IMG/VR virus record: IMGVR_UViG_3300025098_000168
Span: 1 to 32,292 of that record
Strand: one strand, 5' to 3'
Length of the DNA stretch: 32,292 bases
From: a virus
The stretch's first letter is position 1; each line of letters opens with the position of its first letter. Shown here in pieces: positions 20,860 through 26,931 of the stretch. The translations under genes and the position numbers were made by a program. The notes below the pieces were generated by a model. The model searched no databases. It saw only the letters and a program-made list of their open reading frames with translations, and had not been told where the DNA came from.

Positions 20860-21075
20860 TTGGCACGATTCCTGCTAGACTATATACGTAGACACAGAAC
20901 AACCATCGGAGCAAGCGTATAAGCCCAAGTCCTATAGTCCCCCACTTTGAGTTGTAAAAATACGGGTAGGCATAGAGGAGTCCTAACGGACGTAAACGAA
21001 CAGTGTTCTGACGAACGGTGTCCCTAATGCTTAGAGGTTGGATAGCCCTGATGACGCCATGCAAGCTAGCCATAA
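20860..21075 (+). ncRNA. Candidate structured RNA (copy A), with promoter
   Basis: A promoter-like TTGGCA (20860-20865), 17 bases, TATACG (20883-20888) would start a plus transcript near 20895. It soon contains GGAGCAAGCG (20908-20917) and AGCCCAAGTC (20922-20931), the same two blocks in the same order as at 25570-25601. Small hairpins follow (GTCC-TAAC-GGAC; GAAC-AGT-GTTC). A 7-bp pairing, GACTATA (20878-20884) with TATAGTC (20933-20939), is possible only if transcription starts further upstream. The 3' end is not clear. The only frame here (20855-21073 minus) does not look like protein. Confidence 0.4.
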
Positions 21076-21080
21076 AATAT

Positions 21081-21161
21081 TATCAACGATATAGTGTATA
21101 TTGACTTAACTACCTCGCACTCCTAGTGATCTTTGATCGCTTCTTTCGTAACTCGTTGATA
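21081..21161. repeat. Inverted repeat enclosing a second hairpin
   Basis: TATCAACGA at 21081-21089 is the exact complement of TCGTTGATA at 21153-21161. Between them lies a 7-bp hairpin with one G-U pair: AGTGATC (21125-21131), loop TTT, GATCGCT (21135-21141). It could be the end of the copy A RNA or a cruciform in a control region. Confidence 0.5.
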
Positions 21162-21205
21162 TCAGCCCATGGGGCGAAGCTGTGTCTACGCATAAGCTCC
21201 TAATG

Positions 21206-21237
21206 TATAAGGGACTTAACATATAAAGGACTTCACA
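21206..21237. repeat. Tandem 16-bp direct repeat
   Basis: TATAAGGGACTTAACA (21206-21221) is followed directly by TATAAAGGACTTCACA (21222-21237), 14 of 16 bases alike. A third, looser copy is at 21097-21112 (TATATTGACTTAACTA). Such spaced direct copies in a promoter-bearing junction suggest protein-binding sites. Confidence 0.55.
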
Positions 21238-21314
21238 AGAATATATTTTTTTAGAGGGCTTGGGATATATACAGTAACTAGATCTTTGCTTGCTTTTCTG
21301 ATCCCCTCCCCCTT

Positions 21315-21365
21315 GTTTGTCTCGCGGGTTTGTCTCGCGGGTTTGTCTGCCGGTCTGTCTACCGG
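21315..21365. repeat. Tandem repeat family 1, four units of 12-13 bp
   Basis: Units GTTTGTCTCGCGG, GTTTGTCTCGCGG, GTTTGTCTGCCGG and TCTGTCTACCGG lie head to tail. The first two are identical and the others diverge at the same internal positions. No protein-like frame covers them. This is the first of three adjacent repeat families in the divergent junction. Confidence 0.8.
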
Positions 21366-21373
21366 TTGCGCCG

Positions 21374-21435
21374 CTTGGCAGCGTGCAGCTTGTCAGTTCA
21401 CCGGCTTGTCAGTTCAACAGCTTGGCAATCGCCGG
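21374..21435. repeat. Tandem repeat family 2, four units of 15-16 bp
   Basis: Units begin CTTGGCAGC (21374), CTTGTCAGTTCACCGG (21389), CTTGTCAGTTCAACAG (21405) and CTTGGCAATCGCCGG (21421). The shared core is CTTGkCA. Iteron-like spacing suggests a replication or regulatory protein array. Confidence 0.75.
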
Positions 21436-21471
21436 CTCGCGTGGACCTCTTTTATTCTTTGTTGGGGGGAT

Positions 21472-21602
21472 GCATCTTGCGACCAGGTTATGTGGCTAGC
21501 ATCTTGCGACCGGTATTGCGTGATCCATCTTGTGACCAGGTTATGCGACCATGTTATGTGGCTAGCATCTTGCGACAAGGTTATGCGACCAGCTTATAAA
21601 GC
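21472..21602. repeat. Tandem repeat family 3, about 27-bp units
   Basis: Units start at 21472, 21499, 21526 and 21565 with (G)CATCTTGyGACC and continue AGGTTATG then TGGCTA or CGACCA. The third unit is lengthened by an extra copy of the GTTATG part. The array ends in GCTTATAAAGC (21592-21602), whose ends are complementary. It may be an origin, partition-like or transcription-control array. Confidence 0.75.
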
Positions 21603-21663
21603 AAGACCGTGCAGCGGTGATTCTATGGTATAAAGAAAAAGCAAAGATTTATGAAAAAAGATG

Positions 21664-21693
21664 TTGACGTGCAATAATGCACTCGTGTAAATC
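21664..21693 (+). promoter_or_regulatory. Possible promoter of the plus operon with a palindromic operator
   Basis: TTGACG (21664-21669), 18 bases, TAAATC (21688-21693): the -35 is good, the -10 weak. A palindrome, GTGCA-ATAA-TGCAC (21669-21682), overlaps the -35 and spacer, as a repressor site would. It lies 60 bases before the first plus-strand gene. Confidence 0.35.
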
Positions 21694-21751
21694 GTTTGTA
21701 TCGCAAGCAAATCAGCTAAGCGAAATTAAACCACACAAATCAATAAATATT

Positions 21752-21931
21752 ATGAAAAGCCAAATCACACGAGACCTCGAAGGACGCATTGAAATTACCA
21801 CCGAAAGCGGCCATTTCACCGTCATCCCTTCAGACTTCAGCCGCGAGGAAATTCTTGCCGAAGCATACACCCTACACTCCTACAGCGAAAGCTCCGACAA
21901 CTGGAAAGACTGGGTTTCTTGCCTAGTCTAA
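21752..21931 (+). CDS. Small protein, first gene of the plus operon
   Basis: 59 residues from the ATG at 21752 (MKSQITRDLEGRIEITTES...). An upstream in-frame ATG at 21677 is less likely, since it would lie inside the palindrome and promoter region. The product is acidic, soluble, with a beta-like opening and helical centre (FSREEILAEAYTLHSY). Not recognised. Early position suggests a host-takeover or regulatory role, which is only inference. Confidence 0.55.
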   Translation: MKSQITRDLEGRIEITTESGHFTVIPSDFSREEILAEAYTLHSYSESSDNWKDWVSCLV

Positions 21932-21940
21932 TCAATCACA

Positions 21941-21954
21941 GCCCCGAAAGGGGC
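21941..21954 (+). other. RNA hairpin with GAAA tetraloop
   Basis: GCCCC-GAAA-GGGGC, a perfect 5-bp stem with a stable GNRA loop, ten bases after the first plus-operon stop. There is no T run, so it is not an intrinsic terminator. It may shield the mRNA 3' end or mark a processing site. An unstructured CACA-rich leader follows. Confidence 0.6.
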
Positions 21955-21995
21955 GCAACTCACACAACCACACACAACCACACACACTACACACT

Positions 21996-22244
21996 ATGAT
22001 CAAACCAATCGACATCTTAGCTCAGAAAAAAGTAAAAGAAACCTATCGCACTGAATTGCGGTTCGCTATCAATAAAGAGTTTTTCTCCGCATTCAACACA
22101 GTGAACCCTCCATATCAAAAAACAGCTTCGGGCTACCGCCTATTTTTACCTAGTGGAGAGCGAGTGGAGGTTTCAGAGCACTTCAAAGTAAACGTTTTTG
22201 AGACTGATGGCTTTAAAGATAATTCATTTTTTGGCATTAATTAA
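21996..22244 (+). CDS. Small hypothetical protein
   Basis: An 82-residue protein, mixed charge, aromatic-rich centre (EFFSAFNTVNPPYQKTASGY), no membrane segment. It is preceded by a G-free leader of CA repeats, not by a Shine-Dalgarno sequence. Not recognised. It belongs to a series of similarly sized early genes, each separated by 20-100 bases of hairpin plus A/C-rich leader. Confidence 0.55.
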   Translation: MIKPIDILAQKKVKETYRTELRFAINKEFFSAFNTVNPPYQKTASGYRLFLPSGERVEVSEHFKVNVFETDGFKDNSFFGIN

Positions 22245-22297
22245 AACACAACCACACAACCACACAACCACACAGAGCGCACTAGCGCGACCACACT

Positions 22298-22510
22298 ATG
22301 AAAAACAAAGCAAATACTACCCTAGAATGGGCGAACGCCCGTTTTAAAGAAGGATACAATGTTTACTTTTCAACTGCTTATAAGCATATTAAAGTAACGC
22401 CAAAAAACAAAGACGTGCTGCACGTTACGAAAGACGGTTTACGCGTTAATAAAGACTTGGTAACGTCAAACACGGGTTTACTGGTAAAAGTGACCGCATC
22501 TTTCAATTAA
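22298..22510 (+). CDS. Small hypothetical basic protein
   Basis: A 70-residue basic protein, probably a small alpha+beta fold (TLEWANARFKEGYNVYF, HIKVTPKNKDVLHVTKDGL). A short GCGC-ACTA-GCGC hairpin lies ten bases before its ATG, after CACA-rich sequence. Not recognised. Confidence 0.55.
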   Translation: MKNKANTTLEWANARFKEGYNVYFSTAYKHIKVTPKNKDVLHVTKDGLRVNKDLVTSNTGLLVKVTASFN

Positions 22511-22532
22511 CCATAAACAAAGAAAAAACAAA

Positions 22533-22787
22533 ATGATCGACCTCACATACAAGACAGACGGCCTGAGTGCTACTTTCTACGTAAACAGCAACGCCGGCCT
22601 GAGTGCTTACAAGACGCTCGTTGAAACAATCGGAAGTGCAACGGTGCATCTAAGCCAATTAGACGGCACTTTATACCAGCTTAAGCAAGCGGGATATAAG
22701 ACAAGGCGCACGCCCAACAGGGCGCAATCAAGTGACAATTCATTTAATGCAAGCGACGCAGCTTTACTCGAAAAGCTTTTAGCGTAA
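22533..22787 (+). CDS. Small hypothetical protein
   Basis: 84 residues. The motif GLSA occurs twice near the start (LSATFYVNS and LSAYKTLVE), probably a beta strand then helix. The C-terminal half is polar with a final helix (DAALLEKLLA). The leader is AAACAAAGAAAAAACAAA. Not recognised and no membrane segment. Confidence 0.55.
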   Translation: MIDLTYKTDGLSATFYVNSNAGLSAYKTLVETIGSATVHLSQLDGTLYQLKQAGYKTRRTPNRAQSSDNSFNASDAALLEKLLA

Positions 22788-22876
22788 ACTTTACCCTTGC
22801 AATTGATAAAAGACAAAGAGAAAAGACAACCGGCACAAATGCCAAAAACTAAAAAACCATAAACTAAATAATAAAC

Positions 22877-23125
22877 ATGAAAGCAATAGAAACAAAATAC
22901 CTAGCAGCAACAGACACACGCGGCACACGCATCAAAGCAACAGTCGGAAAGCTTACAGCTACCGTTCCCTATGATTACGCTTTAAGCGACGCGGCAGTTG
23001 CATTTGAGGCCGTAAAAGAATTAGTGAGAAAGCACAAGCTTGAATGGGACATCTCAAAAATGGTTTACGGCGGCACAGACAAAGGATATACCTTTTGCTT
23101 CCCTGAATCTACAATTGAAGCTTAA
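22877..23125 (+). CDS. Small conserved phage protein of unknown function
   Basis: 82 residues. The opening MKAIETKYLAATDTRGTRIK, then a beta strand and VPYDYALSD..., matches a widespread uncharacterised small protein of phages and some bacteria that starts with the same KYxxxTxTRGxRIKA pattern. The rest is helical (AVAFEAVKELVRKHKLEWD). I know of no function. Its leader (ACCATAAACTAAATAATAAAC) is of the repeated type, and a small hairpin, GGCA-CAAA-TGCC, lies at 22832-22843. Confidence 0.65.
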   Translation: MKAIETKYLAATDTRGTRIKATVGKLTATVPYDYALSDAAVAFEAVKELVRKHKLEWDISKMVYGGTDKGYTFCFPESTIEA

Positions 23126-23278
23126 AACCTAGCAAATCAAAGCAAATCACCCTTGCGCCCTGCGTTCCCTATAAGGGGCGCGGGGTTTCGAGGTAGGTGA
23201 AGACACCTAAAAACAAACAAAACGCCCTCAAGGGGCATTCAAACGCCATTAAACGGCATTCAAACCAATAAACAAACC

Positions 23279-23503
23279 ATGAAAACAGAGTTCAATAAAT
23301 ACTTAGAGCGTTGCGAACGCTTCCGCAAATCACCCGAAGGCATTGCAGAGCGAAATGAGAGGGAAAGGTTCCAAGATATTCTTGTCAATTTGATGGAAGC
23401 ATCAAAGCAGCCGACTAACGATCGTTTCTCTAAGAGACTGCACGAAATGGCGATAGAATTGAGGGGAATAAGTGATACTATGCACTTTAAAACGTCTCGC
23501 TAA
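23279..23503 (+). CDS. Small helical charged protein
   Basis: A 74-residue protein, very rich in Glu, Arg and Lys, predicted helical over its length (NKYLERCERFRKSPEGIAER, then RFQDILVNLMEAS). No known motif. The region before it (23126-23278) holds short GC hairpins, for example GCGCCC at 23147-23152 pairing with GGGCGC at 23166-23171, and GCCC/GGGC near 23224-23236, but no gene. Confidence 0.55.
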   Translation: MKTEFNKYLERCERFRKSPEGIAERNERERFQDILVNLMEASKQPTNDRFSKRLHEMAIELRGISDTMHFKTSR

Positions 23504-23532
23504 AAAATAACCATCAAACCAATAAACAAACC

Positions 23533-23952
23533 ATGAAAACGAAACAACTATTATTAGCCCTTGCAATGGGCTTAGTCTCAAACCTGTCCGTCAATGCGTC
23601 TGAAATAGTCGCAGCAACCTTGATCCTGGAAGCGGGCGGTGAGTATTCAACCGGCTCAATGGAAGCCGTCAATGAAGTTATACGAAACCGGGCGGCAAAG
23701 CGCAAGCTTACGACCAGGCAAGTTTGCTTGCAACGGAAACAATTTAGCTGTTGGAACAGCGGTAAAATTGAACAGTTGCTAGCCAAAGCAAAGCGGCACC
23801 CACGATTCAACGAGGCCTTGGCCATTGTAAACGGGAAGCCAACTAATTATACAGGCGGGGCGGATCACTACCACGCAGACTACTGCAATCCATACTGGGC
23901 AAGCTCACTGAAAAAGACTTGCACTATCGGAAAGCATATCTTTTATAAGTAA
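23533..23952 (+). CDS. Exported endolysin, SleB-type cell-wall hydrolase
   Basis: A 139-residue protein. An N-terminal signal peptide (K-rich start, LLLALAMGLVSNL, likely cleavage after VNA at about residue 22) precedes a SleB/Hydrolase_2 domain. AATLILEAGGE (residues 27-37) holds the expected catalytic glutamate. NEVIRNRAAKR (47-57), QVCLQRKQFSCWN (63-75) and TGGADHYHADYCNPYWA (107-123) are typical of the family. It would cut peptidoglycan after export, so lysis may depend on Sec rather than only a holin. Two membrane peptides follow, forming a lysis set within the plus operon. Confidence 0.85.
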   Translation: MKTKQLLLALAMGLVSNLSVNASEIVAATLILEAGGEYSTGSMEAVNEVIRNRAAKRKLTTRQVCLQRKQFSCWNSGKIEQLLAKAKRHPRFNEALAIVNGKPTNYTGGADHYHADYCNPYWASSLKKTCTIGKHIFYK

Positions 23953-23961
23953 ACACAAGCC

Positions 23962-24066
23962 ATGAAAAGACTGACAGACAATCAAATCCTAGCAATCTGC
24001 ACGGTTGCAAGCACGCTCACAGCAATCATATGCGCCATTTATGGCCTCTACAGGTTGCAACTCTAA
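23962..24066 (+). CDS. 34-residue single-TM peptide, holin candidate
   Basis: ATG at 23962, nine bases after the endolysin stop, to TAA at 24066. A short polar start (MKRLTDNQ) is followed by one hydrophobic segment (ILAICTVASTLTAIICAIY) and a basic end. A one-helix protein directly after an endolysin is a natural candidate for a small holin or an inner-membrane lysis partner. The short length makes it less certain. Confidence 0.5.
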   Translation: MKRLTDNQILAICTVASTLTAIICAIYGLYRLQL

Positions 24067-24080
24067 CCCAACGACAAACC

Positions 24081-24272
24081 ATGAAAATAATTATTATATC
24101 ATACATTGCAGCCTCGGCCCTTGCGCTGGGCTTTCTAAGTCACGACTTGAACCGGGCAGAAAGCAACATTGAGATACTGGCCAAAGTGATAAAGAATCAC
24201 GAAGACAGCCTCTCGGACCATCGAACCGTCATTTTAGGTCTTTTGGACAAGCGCAACAACTCATTCATGTAA
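24081..24272 (+). CDS. Membrane-anchored coiled-coil protein, spanin-like
   Basis: 63 residues from the ATG at 24081, chosen because ACAAACC precedes it as in its neighbours; an upstream ATG at 24030 would overlap the gene before. Residues 2-19 are a membrane anchor (IIIISYIAASALALGFL) and residues 21-50 a charged helix. The third place after an endolysin and this topology resemble an inner-membrane spanin (Rz-like), but it is shorter than usual and no lipoprotein partner was found. Confidence 0.5.
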   Translation: MKIIIISYIAASALALGFLSHDLNRAESNIEILAKVIKNHEDSLSDHRTVILGLLDKRNNSFM

Positions 24273-24279
24273 ACAGCAA

Positions 24280-24450
24280 ATGCAAGACATTACCGAACGC
24301 CTCAACCTAGCAAAAATCCTAATCAGAAACACGCTAGCCTCTCACCAGGGAACACCCGAAACTGCTGTGACATATGCAGTCAGGCAATTAGACTTGCCAC
24401 CGGACGTTTCACATTCTCTCATTCAATACGCAAACCAATTAAACAAATGA
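24280..24450 (+). CDS. 56-residue hypothetical protein
   Basis: ATG at 24280 (MQDITERLNLAKILIRNTLA...) to TGA at 24450, overlapping the next start as ATGA. Helical, soluble, ending LIQYANQLNK. The overlap and tight spacing to the gene upstream (7 bases) support it as real. Not recognised. Confidence 0.55.
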   Translation: MQDITERLNLAKILIRNTLASHQGTPETAVTYAVRQLDLPPDVSHSLIQYANQLNK

Positions 24451-24923
24451 ATCATAATATACTAGACACAGCAGGACATCAAAGCCAAGCATCAAGCTGC
24501 ATGAGCTTCTTATCATCGGGAGCAGCCCGGGACGCATACCACAGGCTACTAAAGGAAAGCACAGCAGGACAGAGCAAGGGAGAGCAACGCAAGGCCGTGT
24601 TTGTTCGCCATACAAAAGAAGATCGCAAGCGCATAGCCAAAGCGGCGGCTAAGCGGGTAAACGAGGGAGAGTCATGGCAACACGTTGCCGCTGGCTATCC
24701 ATTGAGCGCAGACTCTATCAGACGCAACGCCGTTGCATTTGGATACTACAAGCCAAGGCAGAAGTTTGGGGAACGAGACGCGCAGCGCAAGGTTTACGAT
24801 CAGCAAGCGGAACAGGTGCTTGCCATGGCCGAACGCAAGGGCATTTCAAAGGCTCAAGCGATGGCCAAGGTGGGCATAAGCGAAAACGCATTTTACCAAT
24901 CAATAGAAAGGGCAAAGCGATAA
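24447..24923 (+). CDS. DNA-binding protein with two HTH regions
   Basis: A 158-residue basic protein. After a polar N-terminus, residues about 58-100 (KEDRKRIAKAAAKRVNEGES, then WQHVAAGYPLSADSIRRNAV) and 122-156 (VLAMAERKGISKAQAMAKVG, then ISENAFYQSI) each read as helix-turn-helix units of the type found in resolvases and small phage regulators. It is coupled to both neighbours (ATGA before, TAATG after). A regulator of the plus or late operon is likely but its target is unknown. Confidence 0.6.
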   Translation: MNHNILDTAGHQSQASSCMSFLSSGAARDAYHRLLKESTAGQSKGEQRKAVFVRHTKEDRKRIAKAAAKRVNEGESWQHVAAGYPLSADSIRRNAVAFGYYKPRQKFGERDAQRKVYDQQAEQVLAMAERKGISKAQAMAKVGISENAFYQSIERAKR

Positions 24924-25183
24924 TGACGGGAAGCATGATTTCAAGCGCAGTCCGATACATGGAGAGCATCAAGGACAAGGTTCCACCAGCATACGAGGAG
25001 GAGATCACCGTAAAGCCCGGCACGCCACACCTGAAGACCCTAGGTCTCGACCCTCACAAGATGGTCAAGGCCGTCGATAAGCTCAAGGCAAAGGGGCTAG
25101 AGGTCAAGGATGCTTGCGAGCAAGTGGGAATGACCAGGTCTCAATACTACAAAACCAGAAAAGGAATAACAAACAGAAGATGA
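24923..25183 (+). CDS. Small HTH protein
   Basis: 86 residues from the ATG at 24923, which overlaps the stop before it as TAATG. The C-terminal 40 residues (MVKAVDKLKAKGLEVKDACE, then QVGMTRSQYYKTRKGI) resemble the second HTH of the preceding protein, so the two may be related. The N-terminal half is acidic. A longer frame from 24674 lies inside the previous gene and is rejected. The end overlaps the next start as ATGA. Confidence 0.55.
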   Translation: MTGSMISSAVRYMESIKDKVPPAYEEEITVKPGTPHLKTLGLDPHKMVKAVDKLKAKGLEVKDACEQVGMTRSQYYKTRKGITNRR

Positions 25184-25392
25184 AAACCATACAGCAATAC
25201 CGAAAGGACAACCCGCACCTGTCAGAAGAGCAGATGCAATCCGCCTACCACGTTACCGAAATAGATGCGCCTGAGTTCGCTGTCAGCGGCTTTACGCTCA
25301 TTGCACCCGGCAGGTGTCTCGCTATACATGAAAGCGGTAATATAGCCCCTTTACGGCTCAAAGGGAGCTATGGTGACGCGAGCGCAAGGTAG
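25180..25392 (+). CDS. Last gene of the first plus operon, hypothetical
   Basis: 70 residues from the ATG at 25180 (MKTIQQYRKDNPHLSEEQM...), overlapping the previous stop. Helical start, then a beta-like stretch (AVSGFTLIAPGRCLAIHESG). Not recognised. A terminator 120 bases downstream closes the operon. Confidence 0.5.
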   Translation: MKTIQQYRKDNPHLSEEQMQSAYHVTEIDAPEFAVSGFTLIAPGRCLAIHESGNIAPLRLKGSYGDASAR

Positions 25393-25405
25393 TGTGTTAT
25401 AATGC

Positions 25406-25434
25406 TTGACAAGTTTAAGAAACTTATTTAATAC
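25406..25434 (+). promoter_or_regulatory. Sigma-70 promoter for a short RNA
   Basis: TTGACA (25406-25411), 17 bases, TAATAC (25429-25434). Initiation is expected near 25441 and a strong terminator ends at about 25551, with no gene between. Confidence 0.55.
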
Positions 25435-25440
25435 ATTCAA

Positions 25441-25551
25441 TCATAGCAGCAATGCTACCGTGTCAAGGCGGATCAGTTTAACTTTCCCCGCTTGTTTTTA
25501 CAAGCAACTTTAAACCCTTCCTACAGCTTGACATGTAGGAGGGGTTTTTTT
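25441..25551 (+). ncRNA. Candidate small RNA of about 110 nt
   Basis: Bounded by the promoter at 25406-25434 and the intrinsic terminator at 25512-25551. Inside are AGCA-GCAA-TGCT (25446-25457) and GCTTGT-TTTT-ACAAGC (25490-25505), so the transcript would be three hairpins in a row. No open frame of note. It could instead be simply the 3' end of the upstream operon. Confidence 0.4.
25512..25551 (+). terminator. Intrinsic terminator
   Basis: A 14-bp stem with one G-U pair (25512-25525 with 25534-25547), an 8-base loop GCTTGACA, and a run of T to 25551. It closes the first plus operon (21.75-25.39 kb) and the short RNA. Its loop contains TTGACA, the -35 box of the next promoter. Confidence 0.88.
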
Positions 25552-25556
25552 ATACC
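25528..25556 (+). promoter_or_regulatory. Promoter embedded in the terminator
   Basis: TTGACA in the terminator loop (25528-25533), 17 bases, TATACC just after the T run (25551-25556). Transcription would begin near 25563, just before the conserved GGAGCAAGCG of the structured region. The upstream transcript thus ends where the next begins. Confidence 0.5.
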
Positions 25557-25562
25557 CATACA

Positions 25563-25910
25563 GTCTAGCGGAGCAAGCGGCCTCACAGGTTAGCCCAAGT
25601 CTGCAAACGGAACCCGAAGCGTAGCTTCTAGGTTCTAGTGGTTGCTAGGTTTGAACGAGATACCGACCTAGCGTAACAGGTGGCTCTTAACGGAGCGTGA
25701 ACACCGTCCCGTAGCTTATACAGCACTTACCACGGCCAAGCGGGGCGACATGAAAGGGCGTCAGACTCATACGATTTGAGACAAGACAGCAGGATGTGGT
25801 TCATTCGTAATGGGTGAACCATGTCCGAACGCCAAGAGCTACACCGATTTGATTGAGGCCAAGTTGCAGCATAAGAGAAAACAAAGTTTCTTTAGAAACT
25901 AGGACGATTC
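25563..25910 (+). ncRNA. Large structured RNA candidate (copy B)
   Basis: No credible frame exists in this stretch. Helices nest without conflict: P1 GCAA/TTGC (25573-25576 with 25864-25867) and GGCCTC/GAGGCC (25579-25584 with 25855-25860). Inside P1 are hairpins 25610-25635 (GAACC, GAAGC arms), 25644-25672 (GCTAGGT/ACCTAGC) and 25683-25696 (GCTC/GAGC). Then comes GTAGCT/AGCTAC (25711-25716 with 25837-25842), which encloses GGCGT/ACGCC (25757-25761 with 25829-25833). That in turn encloses hairpins 25766-25780 and 25797-25821 (TGGTTCA/TGAACCA). A last hairpin, AGTTTC-TTTA-GAAACT, lies near 25900. I do not recognise an Rfam family. A replication origin is the alternative; a near-DnaA box (TTATCCACT) is at 25948. 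Confidence 0.55.
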
Positions 25911-25982
25911 TTCTTGACCATCCAAATACCTTCACCTAAATTTTACGTTATCCACTACACATCAACCAATACATAAATACAT

Positions 25983-26147
25983 ATGAAAACATCAGATAAA
26001 ATAAAAAGCATAATCATAAGTCAAATTAATCAAGACGTAAACGCGGCTTGTGAAAATCAAAGCATTGGCGGTTTAGAATATGAAGAGCTGCTCGACATAC
26101 TGGTAGAAGTCAGCAAGTTGGAGGCAATGAGTCAACCCTCCTCCTAA
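25983..26147 (+). CDS. 54-residue hypothetical protein
   Basis: ATG at 25983 to TAA at 26147. The product is helical and acidic toward the end (YEELLDILVEVSKLEAMS). The leader (AATACATAAATACAT) is A/C-rich like the genes after it. First gene after the structured RNA and before the exonuclease. Not recognised. Confidence 0.5.
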   Translation: MKTSDKIKSIIISQINQDVNAACENQSIGGLEYEELLDILVEVSKLEAMSQPSS

Positions 26148-26169
26148 CTCCAATAACCCAAACGTAAAC

Positions 26170-26931
26170 ATGAACTTAAAAACAGAAACTAAAACTGCCC
26201 TCATTGATCTTGAACTGATCTCTTACTCTCATGCGGCTAAGGCTGAGTCAACCGGCACGGGTCTCAAGAGCCTTGTCGAGATGGTGGAGTTCACCATACA
26301 AAGTGTAGTCTCTGCTTGCCGCGCACAGAAGTATTACCTGGTGGTGTCGGGACGCAACAACTTCCGCAAGGTTTTGTATCCAGACTACAAAGCCGGGAGA
26401 CGTGAGAAGCCACCTCTCTATGCCCCATTGATGGACAAGCTCAAGGAGTTGAATGCTTCTCGCTGGTGCAAGCACGACCAACTGGAGGCGGATGATCTAC
26501 TTGGTATCATGCTCACGAACGGAAGGGTTAAAAACCCAATCCTTTGCAGCATAGACAAAGACTTACTTGGTGTCCCCGGATGGCACTACAACTGGAACAA
26601 GGATGACTGGCCTCGTGAGGTGACACAGGATGAGGCAGACCACCATTGGTTGGTTCAGTTACTCATGGGAGATTCAACCGACAACATTGAGGGGATGAAG
26701 GGGATTGGAATTGCTAAGGCTGAGAAGTTAGTTGCCGCCTACTACGAAAAGACGGGAGTCTTTAATGCACCAGTTGCATCAGCAAAAGAAATTTACGAAT
26801 CCGAAGGTTTTAGTCTTGACGCATATAAGAAGTGCCTCATGCTCGCCTCTATCTGGAGGGCACCGATGCCACCAGAGCTTTTAGAAAACGAACTTATCTC
26901 GGAGGTGGTCAAGACCATTCCGAGCCTATAA
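26170..26931 (+). CDS. 5'-3' exonuclease of the FEN/T7 gp6 type
   Basis: A 253-residue protein. Metal-binding acidic residues appear in family order: an early Asp (D13), LEADD (105-109), SIDKD (127-131) and GDSTDN (167-172). A basic arch region, NNFRKVLYPDYKAGRR (63-78), and a helix-hairpin-helix, GMKGIGIAKAEKLV (175-188), follow the pattern of phage 5' nucleases. It would remove RNA primers and degrade or process DNA ends in replication and recombination. The leader AACGTAAAC-ATG lacks a Shine-Dalgarno site. It opens the replication gene set. Confidence 0.85.
   Translation: MNLKTETKTALIDLELISYSHAAKAESTGTGLKSLVEMVEFTIQSVVSACRAQKYYLVVSGRNNFRKVLYPDYKAGRREKPPLYAPLMDKLKELNASRWCKHDQLEADDLLGIMLTNGRVKNPILCSIDKDLLGVPGWHYNWNKDDWPREVTQDEADHHWLVQLLMGDSTDNIEGMKGIGIAKAEKLVAAYYEKTGVFNAPVASAKEIYESEGFSLDAYKKCLMLASIWRAPMPPELLENELISEVVKTIPSL

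Follow-up and report, generated by a model that had tools for sequence, protein, structure and literature searches.

A conserved structured RNA in an exchangeable slot behind a putative kissing-loop terminator of a tailed phage

The DNA analyzed here (hereafter, the window), 32,292 bases long, is a linear viral contig from IMG/VR. Its gene content is that of a tailed phage: the minus strand carries a terminase and structural genes, and the plus strand carries small early genes, an exonuclease, and a DnaB helicase. Among deposited phage genomes the nearest is Phage C75C1 (protein identities of 48-55%). The locus that we describe separates the early genes from the exonuclease operon, and blastn against cultured phages and plasmids found no match to it. 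In our search for a host, the closest named genome was a Flavobacterium single-cell assembly, which encodes a helicase with 51% identity on a 3.5-kb scaffold; the RNA motif was not found in 295 genomes of the class to which this assembly belongs. Judged by eye, the early genes (21677-26170) apparently lack Shine-Dalgarno sequences and instead have A-rich leaders such as AATAAACAAACCATGAAA.

A reading of the window made from its sequence alone had proposed a large nested RNA structure with its own promoter at 25563-25910, in DNA taken to be non-coding. The interval indeed contains no ORF of at least 60 amino acids, and it folds better than shuffled versions of itself (z = -2.8, 0 of 100 shuffles as good). 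We gathered relatives using the neighboring exonuclease and helicase homologues together with motif scans (individual contigs are given L numbers below), and the RNA, which we call RNA1, proved to be present in about 22 IMG/VR contigs. A further scan with the extended motif TACAGCACTTACCACNGC returned four more contigs, all of them apparent chance matches in coding-like sequence. Twenty full-length RNA1 rows, 19 of them distinct, were aligned, and a structure model of 12 helices and 78 pairs (25561-25860, plus strand) was built with RNAalifold and by inspection. A covariance model made from it (R1) recovers both the window's RNA1 and that of L037.

Standard pairs made up 99.0% of the cells of this model in the 19 distinct sequences. 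Both sides had changed in 23 of the 78 pairs, against a mean of 5.8 (sd 1.8) in shuffled alignments, none of which did as well in 500 trials; compensatory cells numbered 44 (shuffle mean 8.0). As a control, sliding the partner by one to three columns left just 2-7 pairs with both sides changed. These counts should be read with two features of the data in mind: the alignment used to score covariation is also the one from which the structure came, and many of the changes stem from three divergent sequences (L023, L032, L037), so that independent events are fewer than cells. The best individual pair (25578-25593) reads U-A in 11 distinct rows and C-G in seven. Across all helices, G-U cells exceeded A-C cells by 187 to 5, and the functional strand is therefore the plus strand. 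At the gathering score, Rfam 15 found no match in the window to any family, including GOLLD, ROOL, OLE, and the group I and II introns. Relaxing the threshold to E <= 10 over 25380-26000 gave only weak, sub-threshold, unrelated matches around the upstream terminator, one of them on the reverse strand. The literature that we searched contained no description of RNA1. Taken together, the comparative evidence indicates that RNA1 is a genuine conserved structured non-coding RNA of about 300 nt, on the plus strand and of no catalogued family; in this the sequence-only reading was right.

Most of the local hairpins among the eight or more nested helices originally proposed are backed by covariation. 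Following RNA1 from its 5' end, a module (25568-25604) forms the helix GCGGA...UCUGC around GCAAGC...GCCCAAG and contains the best covarying pair. Next come the hairpins GGAACC.GAAGC/GCUUC..GGUUCU (25609-25636, five pairs with both sides changed), GCUAGGUU/GACCUAGC (25644-25672, four pairs), and GGUG GCUCU/GGAGC CACC (25679-25705, four pairs), the helix GUCCCGU/GCGGGGC (25706-25746, three pairs), and a 15-bp hairpin close to the 3' end (25792-25826, five pairs). A possible pseudoknot, GUGGU/ACCAC (25638-25642 with 25729-25733), pairs in 20 of 20 rows and, being invariant, offers no covariation evidence. The motif CGATTTGA occurs twice, at 25772 and 25845; both copies read CGAAATGA in L037, as if they had one common partner. 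As a candidate sRNA-target motif it was set aside, since the window contains no site complementary to the full motif. The second copy lies in an almost invariant 3' element, CCGAUUUGAUUGAG (25844-25858). The conserved portion of RNA1 stops near 25860 rather than extending to 25910, and there is no U-run terminator at its 3' end.

The three long-range helices named in the same reading did not fare as well, and none shows a compensatory change. Sixteen of 20 relatives break the third pair (25581-25858) of GGCCTC/GAGGCC, whose 5' strand is occupied by a local hairpin; GTAGCT/AGCTAC is broken in a few relatives; and the outer (first) pair of GGCGT/ACGCC is broken in 16 of 20, with its 4-bp core GCGU/ACGC kept in 17 of the 19 distinct sequences. 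A better candidate for the closing helix is CAGUC/GAUUG (25561-25565 with 25851-25855), which was predicted by RNAalifold and is paired in 19 of 20 rows, though proof by covariation is absent; GUCU/AGRC is the alternative.

Directly upstream of RNA1 lies a separate conserved unit (25406-25552, plus strand) consisting of a promoter-like site, three hairpins, and an intrinsic terminator. The promoter-like site is TTGACA-17-TAATAC (25406-25434), with TTGACA present in 19 of 19 aligned relatives and a less constant -10 (for example TACTAA or TTTATAC). The small upstream RNA that would follow (usRNA, 25440-25552) carries the hairpins TAGCA/TGCTA, CCG/CGG, and GCTTG/CAAGC in addition to the terminator, and RNAalifold on the 19 relatives gave 26 pairs, 14 of them with both sides changed. 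The terminator itself (25512-25552) was located by a terminator scan, and in relatives its stem has been rewired through compensatory changes. The terminator loop, CUUGACAUG (25527-25535), pairs with CGUGUCAAG (25459-25467), the loop of the CCG/CGG hairpin, in a kissing contact that sequence comparison supports.

Nine loop types were found among the relatives, each with its own matching partner. The summed helix length of the matched pairs was 83, against an off-diagonal mean of 5.1 per pair, and none of 20,000 permutations was as good; overall, each loop type pairs best with itself. Seven of the types follow the alignment and two come from other lineages (L159, L035); the segments were picked by eye, which favors the match, most of all for these two. 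We infer that the contact between loop and terminator alters how often the polymerase stops, although the pairing could merely stabilize the small RNA without regulating termination. The terminator also accounts for the promoter that had been proposed for RNA1 (TTGACA-17-TATACC), which lies inside it and is not conserved: in relatives the would-be -35 reads GCGACA, ACTACA, or GCATGT and the would-be -10 reads TATGCC or TGTTGT. The -35 changes because its bases form the terminator loop, whose match to the upstream loop has to be kept.

The window phage carries a second conserved structured RNA, RNA2 (20890-21215, plus strand), where the minus-strand structural genes give way to the plus-strand early genes. 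The motif that RNA1 had been said to share with the 20.9 kb region was recovered, with CGGAGCAAGC at 20907 and 25569 and GCCCAAGTC at 20923 and 25593, and corresponds to a common 5' module, CGGAGCAAGCG..AGCCCAAGTC. An alignment of 20 distinct relatives shows compensatory changes in three pairs of one RNA2 hairpin; its folding energy alone is uninformative (z near 0). RNA2 is related to RNA1 by this module only, since the RNA1 covariance model (R1) found no match in it at E <= 10. In most relatives RNA2 has its own extended -10 promoter (TGnTATAAT). A sigma-54 reading of this promoter was rejected, as L028 and L092 lack its GC dinucleotide and keep the extended -10. Between RNA2 and the first early gene (21300-21610) there are many short imperfect repeats (TTGCGACCAGGTTATG, GTCTCGCGGGTTT), a possible origin or protein-binding array.

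A gapped motif scan identified the same arrangement in contig 3300045738_000688 (L156/L159), from a phage with Erf and SSB genes in which we found no homologue of the window's terminase. Here, a leader with an 11-bp match between its loop and the terminator loop is followed by the terminator and, directly behind it, by CAGTCCAGCGGAGCGAGCGTTTAAGCCCAAGTCTGCA. Model R1 recognizes the 5' module of this contig with 12.8 bits (E = 0.011 when 178 kb are searched and 3.9e-5 for the stretch alone), and the 3' hairpin is, by eye, common to L037. These matches show, at the level of sequence, that the layout of the upstream unit occurs in an unrelated phage together with an RNA bearing the RNA1 5' module.

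What follows the upstream unit varies among the relatives: RNA1 in about 22 contigs, other RNAs or RNA-like sequences, or a protein gene. In L007 and its kin, RNA1 is replaced by an unrelated sequence of about 330 nt and then a GIY-YIG (T5orf172/MUG113) ORF (L007 4446-5003). L013, L034, and L036 carry another RNA-like sequence, near whose 5' end inspection suggests an H-type pseudoknot with covariation. L033 has a fourth, strongly folded cargo (z = -4.1), and L035 has a protein ORF. The L007 and L036 cargoes are at most candidate structured RNAs, their folding energies being no better than those of shuffles (z near 0). Despite its different cargo, the L007 type encodes an exonuclease 96% identical and a helicase 100% identical to those of the window, and so its swap must be recent. 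L007 and L013 retain some 55 bases from the 3' end of RNA1, among them CCGAUUUGAUU and the almost invariant 3' element.

Other features were seen between this slot and the exonuclease gene. Some relatives have one tRNA-like gene near the RNA locus, and in L007 (5765-5883), L022 (4852-4970), and L006 (about 345-470) a tRNA gene occupies this position, enlarged by about 48 bases that apparently lie in the anticodon loop; ARAGORN found no tRNA in the window. In L009 (800-1600), tandem paralogous ORFs with the repeated motif GACTTACTACGAGAACAGTAATGGC are found there.

The structure, strand, and conservation of RNA1, the loop pairing, the exchange of cargo, and the layout in the unrelated phage can all be read from the sequences. 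To account for them, we suggest, at about even confidence, that RNA1 is a trans-acting accessory non-coding RNA, carried as exchangeable cargo and produced by read-through past a kissing-loop terminator. Transcription from the conserved promoter at 25406 would yield a leader RNA of about 110 nt ending at the intrinsic terminator, and a self-specific contact between the terminator loop and the upstream hairpin loop would tune or stabilize that terminator. Polymerases that read through would make a cargo transcript containing RNA1; there may also be a second, poorly conserved start between the terminator and RNA1. RNA1 would then act in trans on a host or phage partner bound through the 5' module that it has in common with RNA2. 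The slot lies in the early region, immediately before the replication genes. RNA1 is probably accessory rather than essential because close relatives swap in unrelated RNAs or a protein gene, and this gene-swapping logic is likewise the ground for proposing action in trans.

The alternative that survives best, though we consider it unlikely, is that usRNA and RNA1 form a cis-acting attenuator or antitermination leader of the downstream replication operon (exonuclease, DnaB helicase). It would explain why RNA1 lies upstream of this operon in relatives, at a much similar position relative to the exonuclease, and why the terminator is structurally constrained. However, the cargo RNAs are wholly different among relatives with the same downstream operon, and RNA2 bears this 5' module at another genomic site. 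The operon may also have its own start, because a promoter-like TTGACC box follows RNA1 (25914-25942) and TTGAC[CT] is found again behind several types of cargo.

The variable yet self-complementary loops of leader and terminator, with each type overall pairing best with itself, could also be read as an immunity-type RNA similar to the CI RNA of satellite P4 or the c4 RNA of P1, in which the leader would bind complementary loops in the transcripts of a co-infecting relative and force termination. We regard this as quite improbable: the phages may be strictly lytic, and a pairing inside one transcript may have a structural role and no other. Slightly less likely still is an RNA-primed replication origin or copy control of the RNAI/RNAII kind, where the transcript would be a structured primer or form an R-loop and the variable loops would set incompatibility. 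The neighboring replication genes, the several alternative types, and loops that vary in sequence and keep their pairing speak for such a system. Nevertheless, GC skew shows no sharp switch at 25.5 kb (from about 22 kb onward its cumulative curve is almost flat), the complementarity lies inside one strand and is not antisense, L035 has a protein gene in the same slot, and RNA2 is 4.6 kb away.

The sharp boundaries of the replacements and the GIY-YIG ORF in the L007-type cargo raise the idea that the slot is a homing site for mobile ribozymes, introns, or similar self-splicing elements, one of them with an endonuclease. This we rank lower again, as neither RNA1 nor the L007, L036, and L033 cargoes had a plausible Rfam match (group I and group II introns included) at E <= 10, no empty allele was seen among the relatives, and RNA1 itself contains no ORF. 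Conserved DNA that folds by chance, such as an array of protein-binding sites, would suit the several blocks that are highly conserved in sequence but is refuted in the main by the compensatory changes and the RNA-specific asymmetry between G-U and A-C, which leave it barely credible.

Returning to our preferred reading of RNA1 as slot cargo acting in trans, we tentatively extend it, at low confidence, to a phage RNA platform in which a self-specific, fast-evolving kissing loop controls a terminator and unrelated phages express interchangeable large structured RNAs; possibly such a platform is used in phage-phage or phage-host conflict. The close relatives that swap RNA1 for other cargo amount to a natural experiment, and the pairing of loop and terminator provides a simple, testable regulatory hypothesis with nine natural variants.

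Several known systems have elements in common with this locus. At lambda pR'-6S RNA-tR', a promoter drives a short terminated leader RNA and the downstream products are made through read-through only. The layout proposed for the RNA1 locus is similar, with a promoter, a short terminated leader, and an element reached by read-through. Unlike in lambda, this element is itself a structured RNA and the leader is matched to the terminator loop; no Q-like protein was identified. The P4 CI and P1 c4 RNAs are small phage RNAs complementary to parts of a nearby transcript, with base-pairing specificity and termination as the output. In outline usRNA resembles them in being small, phage-borne, and equipped with complementary loops beside a terminator, but its pairing joins a hairpin loop to the terminator loop of one transcript. 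ToxIN-type loci consist of an RNA antitoxin, a terminator, and a toxin gene. The RNA1 locus likewise has a promoter, a small structured RNA, a terminator that would be leaky, and a second product; that product is mostly RNA, and no toxin and no repeats were identified.

Few large structured phage RNAs are known, and what the most prominent of them, GOLLD, ROOL, and OLE, do is still poorly understood (PMC12286853). Against this background, the RNA1 family is compact and covaries strongly, with a further relative in the window's own genome and an outlier in an unrelated phage. GOLLD and ROOL are large structured phage or prophage RNAs that are often found near tRNA islands; one ROOL example is 659 nt long and many GOLLD RNAs exceed 800 nt (PMC12286853). 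The likeness to them that was noted at the outset stands insofar as RNA1 too is phage-encoded, non-coding, elaborately folded, and without an assigned function, but it does not extend to family membership, for which homo-oligomeric cage formation would be a further mark. RNA1 has no Rfam match, there is no tRNA in the window, and its length of about 300 nt falls below the criterion of about 600 nt. RNA1 differs from GOLLD and ROOL, finally, in its setting, an exchangeable slot behind a terminator whose loop is matched to that of the hairpin upstream.
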